Part shown: piece by piece, positions 6,611 to 54,544 of the stretch
How positions within the stretch are numbered: the first letter of the stretch is position 1
How the letters are laid out: each line of letters starts with the position of its first letter
Assembly (NCBI GenBank): GCA_019635285.1
Contig: JAHBZS010000007.1
Location: forward strand, 1 to 64,000
DNA length: 64,000 bases
Origin: Rubrivivax sp.
GTDB lineage: Bacteria; Pseudomonadota; Gammaproteobacteria; Burkholderiales; Burkholderiaceae_C
Direction: 5' to 3'
Made by a program: the position numbers and the translations under genes
Notes under the pieces: generated by a model
Databases searched by the model: none
What the model was told of the DNA's origin: nothing
Seen by the model: only the letters and a program-made list of their open reading frames with translations

Positions 6611-7555
6611 ATGCATCTCGTCGTCCCCCATGCGGCGCCCGCCCCGGAGGTCGGGGCGCAGGTCCTGCAAGGGCTGCGGCTGCCGCAGCTGGAGCGGCTG
6701 CTGGCGCGGCTGTCGCCGGGGCCGGCGATCCGCACCGGGCCCGCGTCGCTGAACACGCCATTCGAGCATGTGCTGGCGCGCTGCCGCGGCTGGGCGGGCG
6801 ACGACGGCAGCCTGCCGCTGGCCGCCTGGGCGGCGCAGGCCGATGGCCTGCCGGCCGCGCCGGCGGGCCAGGGCTGGGGCCTGCTGACGCCCACGCATTG
6901 GCAGGTGGGCAGCGAGCAGATCCTGCTGCTCGACCCGGCGCAGTTGCATCTGCACGAGGCCGAGTCGCGCGCGCTGTGGCGGACGCTGCGCGGGCTGTTC
7001 GACGAAGGCGATGGCTGGACCCTGCACTGGGGCGCGCCGCTGCGCTGGTATGCCACGCATGCCCTGCTGGACGGGCTGGCCACCGCCTCGCTGGACCGCG
7101 TCATTGGCCAGCCCATTGATCGCTGGCTGCCCGAGCGCCGCGCCGGCGCGGTGCTGCGCCGGCTGCAGAGCGAGGCGCAGATGCTGCTGCACACGCACCC
7201 CATCAATGCGGCGCGCGAGGCGCGGGGCGAGCTCGCCGTCAACTCCTTCTGGCTCAGCGGCACCGGTCCCACGCAGGCACTGCGGCCGACGGAGGACGAG
7301 CCGCAGGTCGACGACCGTCTGGCCGCGCCCTGGCGCGCCGGCGACTGGGCCGCCTGGGCCGAAGCGTGGCAGGCGTTGGATGCGCAGCAACTGGGCGAAA
7401 TCGAAGCCCGCGCCGCGCGCGGCGATGTGGTCGGCCTGACCTTGTGCGGCGAACGCGCGGCGCAGCGCTTCGACAGCGCGCAGCGCAGCACCTGGCAGCG
7501 GCTGACGCGAGGTTGGCGCCGGCCTGCCGCCCGCACCGCCCTGGAGCCGCTGTGA
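6611..7555 (+). CDS. RpfE-like / 'phosphoglycerate mutase'-named conserved protein of unknown function
   Basis: This 314-aa cytosolic protein resembles the RpfE/COG4255 group found beside recJ in beta- and gammaproteobacteria. Databases often call it phosphoglycerate mutase, but no phosphohistidine motif (RHG) is visible. Recognisable blocks are TPFEHVLAR, WGLLTPTHWQVGSEQILLLDP (about residues 92-115), the WALRTLRGLF-like helix, a LHWGAPLRWYA segment and MLLHTHPINAAREARGELAVNSFWLSGTG (about 195-223). The last block looks like a conserved functional site, yet no reaction is known to me. Its stop overlaps the recJ GTG by 4 bp (GTGA), so it is translated with recJ. Confidence 0.8.
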   Translation: MHLVVPHAAPAPEVGAQVLQGLRLPQLERLLARLSPGPAIRTGPASLNTPFEHVLARCRGWAGDDGSLPLAAWAAQADGLPAAPAGQGWGLLTPTHWQVGSEQILLLDPAQLHLHEAESRALWRTLRGLFDEGDGWTLHWGAPLRWYATHALLDGLATASLDRVIGQPIDRWLPERRAGAVLRRLQSEAQMLLHTHPINAAREARGELAVNSFWLSGTGPTQALRPTEDEPQVDDRLAAPWRAGDWAAWAEAWQALDAQQLGEIEARAARGDVVGLTLCGERAAQRFDSAQRSTWQRLTRGWRRPAARTALEPL

Positions 7556-46979: not shown

Positions 46980-49847
46980 TCAGGCGACGCGGCGCACTTC
47001 GCCGGCGCCGTACAGGTTGCTGACGCAGCGCCCGCACAGCGTGGGGTGCGCGGCATCGGCGCCGACGTCGTCGCGCCAGTGCCAGCAGCGCTCGCACTTG
47101 GTGGCGGCCGACGGCGTGACCGTGACCGCCAGCGCGTCGGCGCTGGCCAGCGTGGCCTTCGACGTGATGAGCACGAACTTCAGGTCCTCGCCCAGCGAGG
47201 CCAGCAGCGCATGCGCCTCGGGCGGCGCGGCCAGCGTCACCTCGGCCTGCAGCGACGAGCCCACGCCGCCGGCGGCGCGCACCGCCTCGATGGCCTTGTT
47301 GACGGTATCGCGCACCTCGCGCAGCGATTGCCATTTGCTCAGCAGCCCCGCGTCGGGGGTGGTGCCGACGCCGGCGAAGTTCCAGTATTCCTGCATGAAG
47401 ATGCTGCCCTGGCCCGGCGCCACCACCGCCCAGGCTTCCTCGGCGGTGAAGCTGAGGAACGGCGCCATCCAGCGCAGCATGGCCTGCGTGATCTGCCACA
47501 GCGCGGTCTGCGCGCTGCGCCGCGCCAGGCTCTTCGGCGCGGTGGTGTACAGGCGGTCCTTGAGCACGTCCAGATAGAACGCGCCCAGGTCCTCGCTGCA
47601 GAACACCTGCAGCTTGGCGACCACCGGATGGAACTCGTAGACCTCGTAGTGCTTCAGCACCTCGGCCTGGAACTGTTCCGCGCGCGTCAGCGCCCAGCGG
47701 TCGATCTCCAGCATCTGCGCCCAGGGCACGGCGTCGGTCTGCGGATCGAAGTCACTGGTGTTGGCGAGCAGGAAGCGCAGCGTGTTGCGGATGCGCCGGT
47801 AGGCGTCGACCACACGCTTCAGGATCTCGTCGTCGCCGGCGATGTCGCCGCTGTAGTCACTGGCCGCCACCCACAGGCGGATGATCTCGGCACCCAGTTT
47901 CTGGCTCACCGCCTGCGGCTCGATGCCGTTGCCCAGGCTCTTGCTCATCTTGCGGCCCTGGCTGTCCACGGTGAAGCCGTGGGTCAGCAGCCCGCGGTAG
48001 GGCGCGCGGCCGTAGATCGCGCAGGCCAGCAGCAGCGAGCTGTGGAACCAGCCGCGGTGCTGGTCGTGGCCTTCCAGGTACAGGTCGGCCTCGGGGCCGC
48101 TGTCGTGGTGGCCCAGGCTGGAGCCGGTGTTGGCATGCGTGCCGCGCAGCACGTGCCAGAAGGTGGAGCCCGAGTCGAACCAGACCTCGAGGATGTCGCT
48201 GCTCTTGGTGTAGTGCGGCGCGTCCTCGGGCCCCAGGATCTCTTCGGCGGTGACGCGGCTCCAGGCTTCGATGCCGCCGGCCTCGACGATGTCGGCGGCC
48301 TGGTCGAGGATCTGCATGGTGCGCGGATGCAGCTCGCCGCTGTCGTTGTGCAGGAAGAAGGGCAGCGGCACGCCCCAGCTGCGCTGGCGGCTGATGCACC
48401 AGTCGGGCCGGTTGGCGATCATGTCGCGCAGGCGCGCACGGCCGTTCTCCGGGTAGAAGCCGGTGTGGTCGATGGCTTCCAGCGCCAGTTGGCGCAGCGT
48501 CTGCGGCGCCTTGTCCTTGGTGAACACGCCCACGCCTTCGTCCATGCGTATGAACCACTGCGCCGCGGCGCGGTAGATCACCGGGCTCTTGTGGCGCCAG
48601 CAGTGCGGGTAGCTGTGGGTGATCGTGGCGCTGGCGAGCAGCCGGCCGGCGGCCTTCAGCGTGTCGATGATGACCGGCACCGCCTTCCAGATGTTCTGGC
48701 CGCCGAACAGCGGGAAGTCGGCCGCATAGCTGCCGTTGCCTTGCACGGGGTTGAGGATGTCGTCGGTCTTCAGGCCGTGCGCGATGCAGGAGTTGAAGTC
48801 GTCCACGCCGTAGGCCGGCGACGAATGCACGATGCCGGTGCCGTCTTCGGCGGTGGCGTAGTCGGCCAGGTACACCGGCGACAGCCGGTCGTAGCCCGGG
48901 TCCACCTCGGCCAGCGGGTGGCGGAAGTTGATGCCGGCCAGCCGTTCACCCAGGGTGGTGGCCAGCACGCGGCCTTCGAGGCCGTAGCGCTCCAGGCAGC
49001 TTTCCACCAGCGACGCGGCCAGCAGCAGCAGCCCGCGCGGCGTGTCGACCAGCGCGTACTCCAGCGCCGGGTTCAGGTTCAGCGCCTGGTTGGCGGGCAG
49101 CGTCCAGGCGGTGGTCGTCCAGATGACCGCGAAGGCCGGCTGGGGCAGCGACGCCAGGCCGAAGGCCGCGGCCAGCTTGTCCGGCTCGGCGCAGGGGAAG
49201 GCCACGTCCACCGTCTGGCTCTTCTTGTCGGCGTATTCGATCTCGAACTCGGCCAGCGAGCTGCCGCAGTCGAAGCACCAGTACACCGGCTTCAGGCCGC
49301 GGTAGACGAAGCCGCGTTCGATGACGCGCTTGAGCGCGCGGATCTCGCCGGCCTCGTTGGCCGGCGCCATCGTCAGGTACGGATGCTGCCAGTCGCCCAG
49401 CACGCCCAGGCGCTGGAAGTCGGTGCGCTGCAGCGCGATCTGCTCGGTGGCGAAGGCGCGGCTCTTGGCCTGCATCTGGTCGCGGCTCAGGCCCCGGCCG
49501 TACTTCTTCTCGATGGCGTTTTCGATGGGCAGGCCATGGCAGTCCCAGCCGGGCACGTATTGCGCGTCGAAGCCGGCCAGCTGCCGCGCCTTGACGATCA
49601 TGTCCTTCAGCACCTTGTTGACGGCGTGACCCATGTGGATCTGCCCGTTGGCATAAGGCGGGCCGTCGTGCAGGATGAACTTGGGCGCGTTGCAGCGCAC
49701 GTCGCGCAGCTGCTTGTACAGGCCCTCTTCGTTCCACTGCTTGACCCAGCCCGGCTCGCGCTTGGGCAGGTCGCCGCGCATCGGGAAGGGCGTGTCGGGC
49801 AGGTTCAGCGTGGCACGGTAATCGGTCTTGGGAGGGGCGGCATTCAT
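46980..49847 (-). CDS. ileS: Isoleucyl-tRNA synthetase
   Basis: IleRS charges tRNA(Ile) and edits Val. The 955-aa class Ia enzyme has the HIGH box variant [14 protein letters not shown] (about residues 57-70), the editing domain with [16 protein letters not shown], the KMSKS loop [13 protein letters not shown] (about 630) and a C-terminal zinc-binding module CERCWHWRD...CGRCVSN. Start ATG 49847 gives the family N-terminus [24 protein letters not shown] (part: [14 protein letters not shown]). It is upstream of lspA and downstream of ribF after 160 bp. Confidence 0.97.
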
Positions 49848-50007
49848 GATGGGCGGCGGCGCCTGAAGGGCCGCAGGGCAAACGTCGAAAGGGCAATGGC
49901 GGCTGCGGCCTGCTGCGGGCCGCGCGGGCGCGTCAAATTCGATCGCGGGTGATCTGCCGGCCAGTTGCCGCGTGCCCGGTGTGCGTGCTCGATGCCATGC
50001 CCCGATT

Positions 50008-50979
50008 CTACCGGGCCGCCCGTGGCGCGCCGAACCAGGCGCGGGCGTCGGCGATGTCCTGCGCGATGCCTTCGCGCAGCGCCTCCAGCGACGGGTACTT
50101 GCGCTCGTCGTGGAACTTGTGCAGCAGCTCGACGCGCACGCAGCGGCCGTAGGCGCCGTCGCGGCCCAGCGCCTCGGGCCACTGCAGGCAGAACACCTCC
50201 AGCAGTTGGCGGCCGGCGTGCTCGACTGTCGGGCGCACGCCCAGGCTGGCCACGCCGGGCAGCGGCGCCTCGGCCAGGCCGTGCACCTGCACCGCGAACA
50301 CGCCCTGCGCCGCCGGCCGCGCATGGCCGAAGCGCAGGTTCAAGGTGGGCGTGCCCAGCGTGCGGCCGAGCTTGCGGCCGTGCAGCACATGGCCGCTGAT
50401 GCTGTAGGGCCGGCCCAGCAGCGCGGCGCAGCGCGCCAGGTCGCCGGCGGCCAGCGCGTCGCGCACCGCCGAGCTGGACACGCGCAGGCCGTGCACTTCG
50501 TAGCTCTGCATGCGCGCCACGTCGAAGCCTTGGCGCGCGCCGGCGGCGTCGAGCATGGCGTAGTCGCCGGCGCGCTTGGCGCCGAAGCGGAAGTCGTCGC
50601 CCACCAGCACGTAGCGCGCACGCAGGCCGCGCACCAGCACGTCGTCGATGAAGGCCTGCGGCGACTGTGCGGCGAAGGCCGCGTCGAAGCGCATGATCAC
50701 CGCCTGGTCGATGCCGCAGCGTTCCAGCTCGGACAGCTTGTCGCGCAAGGTGGCCACGCGCCGCGGCGCCTGATCCGGCGTGCCGGCGCGCGCCGCGAAA
50801 TAGTCGCGCGGATGCGGCTCGAAGCTGAGCACGCAACTCGGCACGCCGCGGTGGCGCGCTTCGTTGGTGAGCAGCGCCAGCATCGCCTGGTGGCCGCGGT
50901 GCACGCCGTCGAAGTTGCCGATGGTCAGCGCACAGGCCGGCGCGATGCCTGGATGGCGTAGCCCTCGGAAGACCTGCAT
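50008..50979 (-). CDS. ribF: Bifunctional riboflavin kinase/FAD synthetase RibF
   Basis: RibF phosphorylates riboflavin to FMN and adenylates FMN to FAD. The 323-aa product has the N-terminal FMN adenylyltransferase domain with [17 protein letters not shown] (about residues 20-36) and [15 protein letters not shown], and the C-terminal kinase domain with [27 protein letters not shown] (part: [20 protein letters not shown], about residues 190-209). ATG 50979 gives the usual MQVFRGL start. GATAAT is 6 nt upstream with no Shine-Dalgarno, suggesting a leaderless mRNA. Confidence 0.95.
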
Positions 50980-50985
50980 GCGCCG

Positions 50986-50995
50986 ATTATCCACA
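50986..50995 (-). promoter_or_regulatory. -10 hexamer GATAAT of ribF overlapping a DnaA-box sequence
   Basis: On the minus strand GATAAT (50991-50986) lies 6 nt before the ribF ATG. The plus strand reads TTATCCACA at 50987-50995, identical to the consensus DnaA box. Overlap of the two could let DnaA block ribF transcription, but a single 9-mer can occur by chance. Confidence 0.35.
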
Positions 50996-51106
50996 GGCCC
51001 TTGCGCGCATTCGTAGGCAGGAAGGGAGGCAACGTCGAAGGCTTCGTGGACGTGCGGTGGCCTGCATGGAGCTCCCGCTGTCGGCGCGTTGTTGTCGTTC
51101 GCGTCA

Positions 51107-51215
51107 TCCAGCGCGAGCCGAGGGCGACGGGTGAACGAATCCGCTCCTGTCCCCCGCCCGGTCTGCGACCGGGCTCCTCCTTTACCTCGCGGATTCGCTC
51201 ACCCGCCACCCTCGG
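51107..51215 (+). repeat. Palindromic element A, copy 1
   Basis: This copy starts TCCAGCGCGAGCCGAGG and folds on itself. The outer stem is CCGAGGG/CCCTCGG, followed by GGGTGA-CGAATCCGC pairing with GCGGATTCG-CACCC, and an apical CCCGGT/ACCGGG hairpin. Unpaired strands CTCCTGTCCCCC and CTCCTCCTTTACCTC flank the apical hairpin. No gene is present. Its inverted partner is at 51318-51425. Confidence 0.85.
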
Positions 51216-51317
51216 CCGGGCAGCTGCGAGGCCTTCGATGCCGCGTCAACAGCCCAAGCGACGCAGTGCCGCGTGTTTGGCTGTTGGCGATGTCTCGAAC
51301 CACACCGTACTCACCCG
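51216..51317. other. Spacer between the two element A copies, with a short hairpin
   Basis: The 102-bp spacer contains CAACAGCC (51248-51255) and its complement GGCTGTTG (51279-51286), an 8-bp stem with a 23-nt loop. No coding sequence is recognised. Confidence 0.4.
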
Positions 51318-51425
51318 CCGAGGGCGGGGGATGCGAGTCCGCGAGGTAAAGGAGGAGGGGCGGGCGCCAGCCCGACCCGGGGGACAGGAGCGGACTCGCA
51401 TCCCCCGTCCTCGGCTCGCGCTGGA
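51318..51425 (-). repeat. Palindromic element A, copy 2 (inverted)
   Basis: Read on the minus strand this copy starts TCCAGCGCGAGCCGAGG like copy 1. Its stem GGGGATGCGAGTCCGC/GCGGACTCGCATCCCC differs from copy 1 on both sides of the pairing, so base pairs are kept. The CTCCTGTCCCCCG and CTCCTCCTTTACCTCGCGGA strands are conserved, while the apical hairpin (CGGGC-GCCA-GCCCG) has a different sequence but still pairs. Confidence 0.85.
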
Positions 51426-51490
51426 CTGAAGCGGACGACTACATTGCGCCGAACTCGGCCGCTCGATCGTTAGCCGCACGCCCGCGGCCA

Positions 51491-52906
51491 TCACCCTGTC
51501 GGCCAGGCCAGCGGATGTGTGCCGGGCGGCATGGAAGGCCGCGGCCAGTCTGTGGGGGTGACCGACAGCTGTGCCGCATGGCGCAGGGCCGTCAGGCGTC
51601 CGAAGCCACTGTCGGTGGTCTGCAGATACGGCGCGAAGTCGGCCTTGGGTGCATCGAAGCCGCCTTCGACCCGGCCCAGGCGGCGCAGCCAGTGGCCGGT
51701 GGCGGCCAGCGACACTTGCACGTGCCAGCTGCCGCCTTCGCGCTGCTGGCGCCGCAGCGCGGCGCAGGCGCCCAGCGCCATCAGGTGGCCCGAGCCGTGG
51801 TCGAGGATCTGCATCGGCAGCGCGCGTGGCGGGCCGCTGCCGAAGGCCTGGGCCTCGGCCAGGTTGAAGCCGGTGGCCGTTTGCACCAGCGAATCGAAGC
51901 CGCGGCGTTGCGCCCACGGGCCCTGGCTGCCATAGGCCGACAGCGAGACCACGACGAGGCCCGGATGGCGCTCGGCCAGCGCCTCGGCGCCGTAGCCCAG
52001 CGCCTGCAGCCCGCCGGGCCGGTAGCCCTGCACGAACACATGCGCGTCGCTCAACAGCGGCTCGAAGGCCTGCCGATCGTCCGCGTCGTGCAGGTCGGCC
52101 AGCGCGGACAGCTTGCCGCGGCTGGTCTCGGCGATGGCGTCGATGTTGGGCAGCCGAGGCGAGTTGACCAGCAGCACGTCGGCACCGTGCGCCGCCAGCA
52201 CGCGCGTGCCCACCGGCCCGGCGAGGATGCGCGTCAGGTCGAGCACGCGCACGCCCTGCAGCGGCCGGGCTTGCGTGGGCAGCGGCGGCAGGGCGCGCGG
52301 CGCGGCGTCGCCGAGCTTGGTCCACTGCAGCAGCGGCTGCTGGGCCACCGAGATGCCCTGCGCATGGTGGTCCCACTCGTCGAAGCTGCGCAGCGCGGCC
52401 ACCACCAGGCCGGCGTCGGCCGCGGCCTGTTCGAAGTCCAGCGCGCGCCAGCCCTGCAGTGCGCGCTGCACGTCGCTGCGCTCGGTGCTGCCGCCTTCGG
52501 GCAGGCCCAGCAGGCGCAGCGCGCCGTCGCGGTGGTGCGCGAAGTTGGTGTGCAGGCGCACCCAGCCCGCCGCGCCGTCGTCGCCGCCGCAGGGGTACAG
52601 GCCGGCCAGCTTGTCCCACACCTGCAGCGCCTGGCCGTCCAGCAGGAAGTGCGTGCAGCATTCCAGCGCGGCGTGGCGCATGTCCACGCTGAGCGCTTGT
52701 TCGACGCCGTTGCGCAGCCGGCCCAGCTCGGCGGCGGCCAGCGCACCGGCCGCGGTGGCTGCCTGCGCCGCCGTGCCGACGGCGAAGGACGAGGGCAGCA
52801 CCGGCTCGCTGCCGCGCAGGTCGACGCGCTGCAGGGCCGTCTCGTCCAGGCCGGCACAGCGCCACAGCTGTTGCAGCGCGTCGCGGGGCGGTGTGGGTGG
52901 TGACAT
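51491..52906 (-). CDS. Family III CoA-transferase (CaiB/BaiF) protein
   Basis: The 471-aa protein belongs to CaiB/BaiF CoA-transferases, which move CoA between carboxylic acids. The core begins near residue 215 with GVRVLDLTRILAGPVGTRVLAAHGADVL (part: VLDLTRILAGPVGTRVLAAHG), followed by the GKLSALADLHD segment and YGSQGPWAQRRGFDSLVQTATG. An N-terminal half with SSFAVGTAAQAATAAGALAAAELGRLR and VSVDMRHAALE-like motifs resembles the C-terminal half of the fold, as in a common Burkholderiales branch. The catalytic Asp of FRC is not clear. Start ATG 52906 or GTG 52909; it overlaps the rsuA stop. Confidence 0.82.
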   Translation of the reverse strand: MSPPTPPRDALQQLWRCAGLDETALQRVDLRGSEPVLPSSFAVGTAAQAATAAGALAAAELGRLRNGVEQALSVDMRHAALECCTHFLLDGQALQVWDKLAGLYPCGGDDGAAGWVRLHTNFAHHRDGALRLLGLPEGGSTERSDVQRALQGWRALDFEQAAADAGLVVAALRSFDEWDHHAQGISVAQQPLLQWTKLGDAAPRALPPLPTQARPLQGVRVLDLTRILAGPVGTRVLAAHGADVLLVNSPRLPNIDAIAETSRGKLSALADLHDADDRQAFEPLLSDAHVFVQGYRPGGLQALGYGAEALAERHPGLVVVSLSAYGSQGPWAQRRGFDSLVQTATGFNLAEAQAFGSGPPRALPMQILDHGSGHLMALGACAALRRQQREGGSWHVQVSLAATGHWLRRLGRVEGGFDAPKADFAPYLQTTDSGFGRLTALRHAAQLSVTPTDWPRPSMPPGTHPLAWPTG

Positions 52907-53604
52907 CACAGCCCCGGGGCGATGTGTTCAGGCTCGACCCAGCGCCACTGGCCTGCGGCCAGGTCGTCCGGCAGATGCAGGTTGCCGAAGGCGCTGCGCC
53001 GCAGCGCGACCACGCGGTTGCCCACGGCAGCGACCATGCGCTTGACCTGGTGGTACTTGCCCTCGGTCAAGGTCAGCTGCAGCTGCCGCTCGCCCAGGGC
53101 CTGGCAGGCGGCGGCGCGCACCGGCTGCGGGTCGTCGTGCAGCACCACGCCGTCCAGCAGCTGGGCCACCTGGGCGGGCGTCAGCGCGTCGGCGCAGTCG
53201 GCGACGTAGACCTTGGGCACGTGCCGCTTCGGCGAGGTGAGCCGGTGGATCAGCGTGCCGTCGTCGGTGAGCAGCAGCAGGCCGGTGGTGTCTTCGTCGA
53301 GCCGGCCGATGGGCTGCACGTCGCGCTGGCGCAGCGGCGGCGGCAGCAGGCTCAGCACGCTGGGGTGGTGCCGGGGCTTGCGCGAGCATTCATAGCCCGG
53401 CGGCTTGTTCAGCATCAGCAGCGCCTTGGCACGGTAGGCCCAGGGCTGGCCCTGCACGCTGAACACCAGGCCGTCGGTGGCCAGGTCGGCCGCGGGGTCG
53501 TCCAGCACCTGGCCGCCGACCTGCACCTCGCCGTGCAGGATCAAGGTATCGCAGGCGCGGCGCGTGCCGAAGCCCTGGCTGAAGAGCACCTGGCGCAGCT
53601 GCAC
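52906..53604 (-). CDS. rsuA: 16S rRNA pseudouridine(516) synthase RsuA
   Basis: The 232-aa enzyme isomerises uridine in 16S rRNA (U516 in E. coli). It has an N-terminal S4 domain (VLFSQGFGTRRACDTLILHGEVQVGG) and the catalytic domain with LNKPPGYECS, catalytic Asp in IGRLDEDTTGLLLLTDDG (about residue 104), and SEGKYHQVKRMVAAVGN-like TEGKYHQVKRM. HVPKVYVADCADAL fits RsuA better than RluB/E. The start is GTG 53604, 1 nt after the stop of the dehydrogenase gene; no ATG lies nearby. Confidence 0.9.
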   Translation of the reverse strand: MQLRQVLFSQGFGTRRACDTLILHGEVQVGGQVLDDPAADLATDGLVFSVQGQPWAYRAKALLMLNKPPGYECSRKPRHHPSVLSLLPPPLRQRDVQPIGRLDEDTTGLLLLTDDGTLIHRLTSPKRHVPKVYVADCADALTPAQVAQLLDGVVLHDDPQPVRAAACQALGERQLQLTLTEGKYHQVKRMVAAVGNRVVALRRSAFGNLHLPDDLAAGQWRWVEPEHIAPGL

Positions 53605-53605
53605 G

Positions 53606-54544
53606 CTAAGCGTCGCCCTGCAGGCGCTCCCAGGCGCGCGCCGCACGCTGCGTGCGCGCCGACCCCGCCACGCCGAAGAGCGCGGCGTCGCGCTGCCAGC
53701 GTTGCGCGGCCGGGTCGTCTGCATGCTGCGCCCACAGCGGGCCCGCCTCGGCATACAGCGCATGCGCCTGGGCCAGCGCGCCGGCCAGCACCACGTGGGT
53801 GGCCGGCGCGTCGGCCGGTGCCGCGCCGACTTCGGCCAGCGCGACGATGACCGCGCACAGCCGCTCGGCAAAGGCCGTGGGCCAGCCGCGCTGGCGCGCT
53901 TCGCGCAGCAGGTAGGCCAGCACCGCCAGCGTCACGTGCGCATCCTCGAGGGTACGGAAGGGCTTGACGTAGCGCGCGTAGCCGTCGCCCGGCAGCAGCG
54001 CGTCGGCCGTCACGCACACCGCGTCCAGCTGCACGCGCGCATGCGGCACCTCGGGCACGAAGCGCGTGTCGGGCATCGCCAGCAGCTGCAGCCCCGGCGT
54101 GCCGCTGGCCACGCGGGCCACCTTCAGCTGCGCGCGCTCGGCGCCGTCGTCGCCGGCGGGCAGGGCGCCGACGACCAGCAGCACGCTGCTGTCGGGGCCC
54201 AGGGTGGTCCAGCGCTTGGCTCCGCTGATGGTCCAGCTGCCGTCGCCGGCCGGCGTGAGGCGCGTGCGGATGTCGCGTGGCCGGTTGCCGCCTTCTTCGG
54301 TGACGCAGAACGCGGCCACCGCCGCGGCGGGCAGGTCGGGCAGCAGCGCGCGCAGGGCCGCCTGGTAGCCGCTGGCGAAGGCCCAGCCGACGCGGTCGGC
54401 GTCGAAGCCGCCGAGCAGCGCTTGCGCCGCCGGCGTGGCCGCGCGTGCCGCGCCGTCGCGCCAGCGCGGCCACCAGGCGGCGACGTCGGCGCGCGCGGGC
54501 ACGTCGGTGGGGGCACGCAGGCAGGCATCGAGGGCGGCGATCAT
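53606..54544 (-). CDS. Short acyl-CoA dehydrogenase-like protein
   Basis: The 312-aa protein has the acyl-CoA dehydrogenase middle domain: FCVTEEGGNRPRDIRTRLTPAG and WTISGAKRWTTLGPDSSVLLVVG (part: ISGAKRWTTLGPDSSVLLVV), about residues 77-125. It is about 70 residues shorter than typical members, with a reduced N-terminal helical domain and no clear catalytic Glu. An FAD-linked role is uncertain. It is followed by rsuA and the CoA-transferase gene, all close together. Confidence 0.78.
   Translation of the reverse strand: MIAALDACLRAPTDVPARADVAAWWPRWRDGAARAATPAAQALLGGFDADRVGWAFASGYQAALRALLPDLPAAAVAAFCVTEEGGNRPRDIRTRLTPAGDGSWTISGAKRWTTLGPDSSVLLVVGALPAGDDGAERAQLKVARVASGTPGLQLLAMPDTRFVPEVPHARVQLDAVCVTADALLPGDGYARYVKPFRTLEDAHVTLAVLAYLLREARQRGWPTAFAERLCAVIVALAEVGAAPADAPATHVVLAGALAQAHALYAEAGPLWAQHADDPAAQRWQRDAALFGVAGSARTQRAARAWERLQGDA

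Follow-up and report, generated by a model that had tools for sequence, protein, structure and literature searches.

A dispersed two-armed inverted-hairpin element with covarying stems and a coupled purine loop in Burkholderiales and Xanthomonadaceae

The 64,000-nucleotide stretch of Rubrivivax sp. DNA analyzed here (contig JAHBZS010000007.1, positions 1 to 64,000; hereafter the window) contains, in the gap between ribF and a CoA-transferase gene, two inverted palindromic sequences whose stems differ at corresponding positions. This raises the question of what these sequences are, which of their strands folds, and whether the fold is kept by selection. An initial annotation regarded them as two copies either of a structured RNA or of a mobile DNA repeat under selection for its hairpins. 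Both copies lie where it had placed them, and aligning them revealed the common segments TCCAGCGCGAGCCGAGG, CTCCTGTCCCCCG and CTCCTCCTTTACCTCGCGGA, a long stem that reads CGAATCCGC/GCGGATTCG in one copy and CGAGTCCGC/GCGGACTCG in the other, as well as apical hairpins that differ in sequence and pair in both. However, while the inverted pair is real, the two copies are really the arms of a single 370-bp element (51082-51451; Table 1), a plus/minus pair that recurs in the genome. We consider this element, with a probability of roughly 0.55 on the basis of its sequence, to be a dispersed two-arm inverted hairpin element that resembles an outsized REPIN (a doublet of repetitive extragenic palindromic, REP, units forming hairpins), i.e., a non-autonomous DNA unit with its G strand serving as the recognition hairpin.

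The element consists of a terminal repeat, the left arm, a centre of ~100 bp, the right arm, and a second terminal repeat, with the terminal repeats being imperfect and the arms representing two inverted hairpins of ~100 nt each. Sequence comparison resolved each arm into three parts, namely the long stem P1, the apical hairpin P2, and, between them, a conserved purine internal loop that is asymmetric. The conserved sequence is the internal loop between P1 and P2; the outer stem ends are variable, and no GTAG or CGTC tag is present at the unit end.

In single-stranded DNA folding, all four arm strands were more stable than their shuffled counterparts (z -5.3 to -6.6, 0 of 200 shuffles as good). 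The window's two arms alone are insufficient as proof of the covariation that had been proposed for them, but relatives provided it: a covariance-model search identified 26 arms in the own genome and further arms in related genomes, and their stems are compensated. From a loose pattern, 198 arms were collected, excluding arms less than 70 bases from an end, and 111 non-redundant arms were retained; a set of 23 diverse arms was composed of 20 among them that have an apex of 21 nt and of 3 arms from the own genome. In this set, 88.5% of 872 cells are paired, compared to 61.3% in shuffles and at most 41% in slid registers, although the pairing percentages are biased upward by the discarding of 18 arms with weak stems or long apices. 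Double changes occur at 36 of 38 pairs, and 0 of 500 shuffles reach this on any of five measures. Stem positions past the ninth mostly carry less than 1 bit of sequence information, yet 71-90% of arms are paired there up to position 31, while the loop-adjacent positions 2, 3, 4, 6, and 8 are frequently unpaired. At one orthologous site, 11 of 31 P1 pairs are doubly changed and 97.4% are paired, as calculated from its 11 right arms and not its 12 left arms.

Mismatches within the stems point to the strand that folds. On the C strand of the 111 non-redundant arms, A.C oppositions outnumber G.T oppositions by 193 to 41 at positions 10-31 and by 146 to 16 at positions 10-22; arm by arm, 84 lean toward A.C, 5 lean in the opposite direction, and 22 are tied (p=1.4e-19). 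Shifted registers exhibit the same lean (A.C 214-286 versus G.T 164-210), which is, however, mild (<=1.7-fold) and too small to explain the signal. Moreover, the arm filter accepted G.T but not A.C as a pair, a bias that opposes the observed excess of A.C. Since A.C on the C strand corresponds to a G.T wobble on its complement, selection sees the GTAAAGGAGGAG...CGGGGGACA strand. Judged from these alignments, the folded strand is 5'-stem-GTAAAGGAGGAG-hairpin-CGGGGGACA-stem-3' (the G strand), and it is this strand on which structural selection acts.

Both strands of the internal loop read GGNGGA, and their Ns are coupled. In a first sample (100 of 121 loci; the best 150 of 160 matches aligned, 149 of these 150 parsed), the two Ns were A/G in 138 cases, G/A in 5, A/A in 5, and G/G in 1 (Fisher 2.6e-6); the remaining 21 loci were searched separately, and their 30 matches are left out of these counts. 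A search of 200 genomes that left the Ns free listed 150 places from 37 of the 51 positive genomes, of which 119 are A/G, 27 G/A (17 genomes), 4 A/A, and 0 G/G, or 105, 26, 4, and 0, respectively, after collapsing to distinct sequences per genome; the coupling has a Fisher p=7e-26, uncorrected for relatedness. The reversed GGNGGA-pair pattern matched once in the 200 genomes. Near-identical loop-and-apex sequences in either N state exist within one genome in 3 cases (G098, G005, and G009). Since non-complementary positions that change together imply a direct contact with a two-fold-symmetric role, the core Ns point to a non-Watson-Crick contact. These Ns could represent the middle of a GGNGG/GGNGG purine helix with G.G and A.G pairs, or the linkers of a two-tier G-quadruplex; the four GG tracts of the core are conserved, making it a quadruplex candidate by sequence alone. 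Mimicry of a Shine-Dalgarno sequence (AAAGGAGG) is unlikely, as the central base is G when its partner is A. Together, the covarying stems and coupled loop strands indicate that one particular strand folds and that selection keeps this fold.

Within the 4.9-Mb genome, CTCCTCCTTTACCTCGCGGA with up to 3 mismatches yielded 27 matches (14 forward and 13 reverse; reversed control 0), mostly as inverted pairs 164-183 bp apart; the window itself is matched by the conserved strand within 3 mismatches only at its two arms. The copies form two subfamilies with common ends and loop, A (4 copies, 93-97% mutual identity) and B (6 copies, 82-95%), which are 65% identical to each other. Both terminal inverted repeats are present in 7 of these 10 copies, and one end is absent or too diverged in the other 3; for 3 copies in the comparison of identities and flanks, the ends were assigned by analogy. 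No similarity between the flanks of the ten copies was found at E 1e-5, and no target duplication was seen by eye. Tight subfamilies with unrelated flanks imply that further copies of the unit have arisen at other sites. A second element, of subfamily B, lies on the window's contig, outside the window (G000:C67:125173-125497), and several contigs of the genome terminate within B copies. Furthermore, another contig harbors a ~130-bp deletion derivative of subfamily A (L215, G000:C8, ~77480-77600), in which the loss apparently took place between two CGGGGGA stretches.

The exact loop pattern was found in at least 119 stretches of GTDB genomes. Among the 80 titles shown, most are Burkholderiales (Rhodoferax, Hydrogenophaga, Rubrivivax, and others), and Rhodocyclaceae, Oxalobacteraceae, Stenotrophomonas, Lysobacter, Luteimonas, and Pseudoxanthomonas are also represented; these loci were chosen by their loop motif, and loop conservation among them is, therefore, partly by construction. 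Model arms were detected in 58 of 120 sampled genomes of the same family, with none found in the other 62, and, at lower sensitivity, in 8 of 349 genomes across the phylum, which belong to two families, the second of which (that of genome G435) we take to be Xanthomonadaceae. These counts are lower bounds, since at most 33 candidates per genome were scored in the family survey and at most 11 in the phylum survey. The repeat is dispersed through many Burkholderiales and Xanthomonadaceae, and the number of matches per genome ranges from 0 to 35 among 12 genomes. Three loci with Xanthomonadaceae-like arms (L043, L062, and L076) come from an assembly titled Bacillus subtilis SK7B5 (JAHREJ01), which is perhaps mislabelled or contaminated. 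Of two pattern matches in viral contigs, one (L148) holds a model arm (51.8 bits) and the other (L147) none. The former, at 7351-7430 near the end of the fetched stretch, is located on an IMG/VR viral contig of 42,780 bases that may be a prophage or misassigned host DNA.

The initial annotation's choice between an RNA and a mobile repeat is supported by the 26 arms of the own genome, the 58 of 120 family genomes, and the 36 of 38 pairs that are doubly changed; the dispersal favors the repeat over the RNA. The paired architecture, the choice of folded strand, and the coupling within the purine loop go beyond it. With regard to the architecture, 12 genomes, 11 of which have arms, contain 57 outward-oriented pairs and an outward-oriented quadruplet, compared to 1 inward, 1 '--', and 1 '++' arrangement, besides 26 single arms. 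Outward orientation accounts for 58 of 61 multi-arm clusters, a count based on 150 of 153 matches in which diverged partners below threshold may be missed. Likewise, 100 loci comprise 45 outward pairs (43 internal and 2 at an edge), 1 inward pair, 1 '+-+', and 1 '--' arrangement, as well as single arms (33 internal and 20 at an edge). In most pairs, the predicted folding strand points outward, so that the 3' arm is the foldable one on each DNA strand. A supposed widely spaced pair (L052) turned out to be two single arms 1750 bp apart, and no convincing gene was found inside a pair with a 544-bp gap between its loop motifs (L094).

The genomic context is biased as well. Element sites are divergent in 7, tandem in 36, and convergent in 22 cases, compared to 56, 99, and 29 element-free gaps, respectively. 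Divergent gaps hold fewer elements (7 versus 58 others; background 56 versus 128; p=0.0015) and convergent gaps more (p=0.004). The underlying gene calls are crude, assume the arms to be non-coding, and omit 4 elements located at edges as well as 10 that are distant from any called gene; an earlier, cruder call without the non-coding assumption gave 46 tandem, 22 convergent, and 8 divergent elements. Single arms in tandem contexts exhibit no clear gene-strand bias (8 are sense and 5 are antisense; by the cruder call, 11 and 9, respectively). In the window gap, a consensus scan found no sigma-70-like promoter, and none of the positions 50980-51520 matched a terminator by consensus.

How a single copy persists can be followed in Stenotrophomonas, the genus of G435, in which the locus L058/L101 was searched in 31 genomes, 20 of which were read by eye. 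Single full elements are present in 6 genomes (among them G435 and G569, the latter with quite different stems at the same site), between two T-run hairpins that by eye are putative terminators. Three further genomes (G231, G564, and G566) exhibit partial or full tandem duplications, one arm is left in G567 (right) and G575 (left, beside a long insertion), and only remnants are found in G581 and G582. In G575, the insertion, possibly an insertion sequence (L340, G575:C1:4401815-4404294), accompanies the loss of the right arm. No element was seen at the site in 7 of the 20 genomes. In one of these, G578, the hairpins are ~20 bp apart, and next to the G569 element stands AGCAAC, which may represent either a duplication or deletion endpoints; insertion and deletion fit equally well. 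For the window copy, G134 was considered as an empty site and rejected, as it is not clean and its flanks differ beyond the element.

The DNA element that we favor could spread as follows: when the DNA becomes single-stranded, through replication or cruciform extrusion, the G strand would fold and might then be recognized by a trans-acting enzyme that spreads the unit, with the two arms marking its two 3' ends. Favoring DNA over RNA are the gap-context bias, the lack of a clear strand bias of single arms, and the missing promoter in the window gap; the position of the Stenotrophomonas element between two putative terminators has been counted here as well. Several observations weigh against this proposal. 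The analysis identified neither a transposase nor an insertion event nor a clear target duplication, and BLAST searches of two elements against plasmids and one against phages gave no match. The 20 Stenotrophomonas genomes provided a single near-clean empty site, for which a deletion is equally possible, and the fact that the element persists at an orthologous site is also compatible with a host function. A consensus scan of G435 flagged one of the two supposed terminators, similar to shuffles (1 versus a mean of 0.9). Furthermore, 15 elements lie inside called open reading frames (ORFs) in the cruder gene call, and the later call removed such ORFs by assumption. Finally, the one-strand wobble fits RNA equally well, and the single-stranded state of the DNA is inferred.

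The main rival, which we regard as unlikely, is a structured RNA, with the G strand being transcribed outward from the centre or by read-through and functioning either as a small RNA or as a 3' element of an mRNA. One-strand G-U wobble, a conserved internal loop, and heavy covariation are classic RNA signatures, and the outward direction of the G strands would be compatible with divergent transcription starting in the centre. However, the copies are dispersed with like ends, the small sample of single arms lacks a clear gene-strand bias, the window gap lacks a promoter-like site by consensus, and none of 4227 Rfam families reached its gathering score anywhere in the window; the best weak matches in 51000-51500 are microRNA hairpins (24.4 bits versus a cut-off of 97).

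Rather improbable, although overlapping with the DNA element that we favor, is a host chromosome element that, in cruciform or quadruplex form, serves as the binding site of a nucleoid or topology protein and spreads only occasionally. The lack of plasmid and phage matches, the persistence with compensation at an orthologous site, and the paucity in divergent gaps would fit. In contrast, 0-35 matches per genome and the 62 of 120 family genomes without a detected arm imply that the element is dispensable, the tight subfamilies within one genome show spreading, and one viral contig carries an arm.

It is quite improbable that this is a true REP/REPIN system mobilized by a REP-associated tyrosine transposase (RAYT, Y1). 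REPs prefer non-divergent gaps. The element shares this preference with REPs, REPINs, and bacterial interspersed mosaic elements, as well as palindromes, arrays, and the occurrence as single units or inverted dimers; its ~100-bp spacer is comparable to REP dimer spacers, which are mostly 20-100 bp according to PMC3733652. Nevertheless, the element is not a REP in size, tag, or RAYT association: its arms span ~100 nt, while REP units span 20-40 nt; a purine internal loop takes the place of a GTAG or CGTC tag; and it is not associated with Y1/RAYT genes. The own genome lacks a Y1_Tnp match at E<=0.001, 42 of the 58 arm-bearing genomes have Y1 transposase genes, as do 45 of the 62 in which no arm was detected, and none of the 20 Y1 loci kept (11 from arm-bearing genomes) holds an arm, so that the presence of these genes does not track the element. 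No arm was found in G015:C1, a genome consisting of a single contig, which has 20 Y1_Tnp matches, some of them partial, that look like an IS200-type expansion.

Other known systems fit incompletely as well. Like miniature inverted-repeat transposable elements, the element is short and dispersed and has terminal inverted repeats, but its subterminal hairpins are conserved and structured, and neither a clear target duplication nor a parent transposon was found; it is no more than a candidate for this class. A search with the end pattern for a parent transposon gave 699 matches versus 332 for the reversed control, the pattern being too short, and among 6059 ORFs neighboring 150 loci, the 25 largest clusters, read by eye, included no evident transposase. 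TM-ECO, an intrastrand triplex motif of Escherichia coli, is likewise repeated, intergenic, G-rich, and of unusual DNA structure, but is, as far as PMC4666352 describes it, a different motif of 37 nt with another sequence and without a long covarying stem. The element was not described in the literature searched, to which subscription papers mostly did not belong.

Neutral palindrome correction, by which template switching during replication matches stems without selection, is largely refuted as the sole cause and very improbable, since, although quasi-palindromes tend toward correction and many stem positions are nearly sequence-free, this process would account neither for the asymmetric wobbles nor for the coupling of loop positions that are not complementary.

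At 46980-53871 of the window, the order of features on the minus strand is pseudouridine synthase, CoA-transferase III, the element, ribF, and an isoleucyl-type tRNA synthetase.

Table 1. Coordinates of the element, its parts, and the neighboring genes in the window.
Feature	Position	Strand	Remarks
Whole element, subfamily A, 370 bp	51082..51451	.	Ends set where dispersed copies cease resembling each other
Left terminal inverted repeat CGGCGCGTTGTTGTC	51082..51096	+	Ends alike in A and B copies
Left arm; predicted folded (G) strand is minus	51117..51216	-	R1 match 93.6 bits
5' strand of the left-arm loop on the C strand, TGTCCCC (GGGGACA on the G strand)	51148..51154	+	
3' strand of the left-arm loop on the C strand, CTCCTCCTTTAC (GTAAAGGAGGAG on the G strand)	51174..51185	+	
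Centre (spacer) separating the arms	51217..51314	.	Spacing similar in relatives
Right arm; predicted folded (G) strand is plus	51315..51417	+	R1 match 84.0 bits
First GGNGGA (N=A) of the right-arm loop, strand GTAAAGGAGGAG	51346..51357	+	
Second GGNGGA (N=G) of the right-arm loop, strand GGGGGACA	51379..51386	+	
Right terminal inverted repeat, plus strand GACTACATTGCGCCG	51437..51451	-	
Neighbor ribF (FAD synthetase and riboflavin kinase)	50008..50994	-	Pfam PF06574, PF01687
Neighbor CoA-transferase family III gene	51491..52909	-	Pfam PF02515

Going further than the DNA element that we favor, we tentatively suggest, as a doubtful but specific possibility, that the GGNGGA pair, with one A and one G, forms a two-tier G-quadruplex between covarying helices, and that a non-RAYT enzyme uses this hairpin-quadruplex, located on the 3' half of each strand, as its substrate and has thereby spread a class of repeat absent from the literature searched through Burkholderiales and Xanthomonadaceae; as the readings overlap, their odds total more than 1. 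Covariation is deep in this dispersed bacterial repeat, its folded strand and a non-Watson-Crick core contact can be read from sequence alone, and the element provides a testable substrate, with four core variants (A/G, G/A, A/A, and G/G) and two strands. It is a natural candidate for a hairpin-embedded quadruplex kept by selection, and a new single-strand-processing enzyme or nucleoid factor might be discovered through it.
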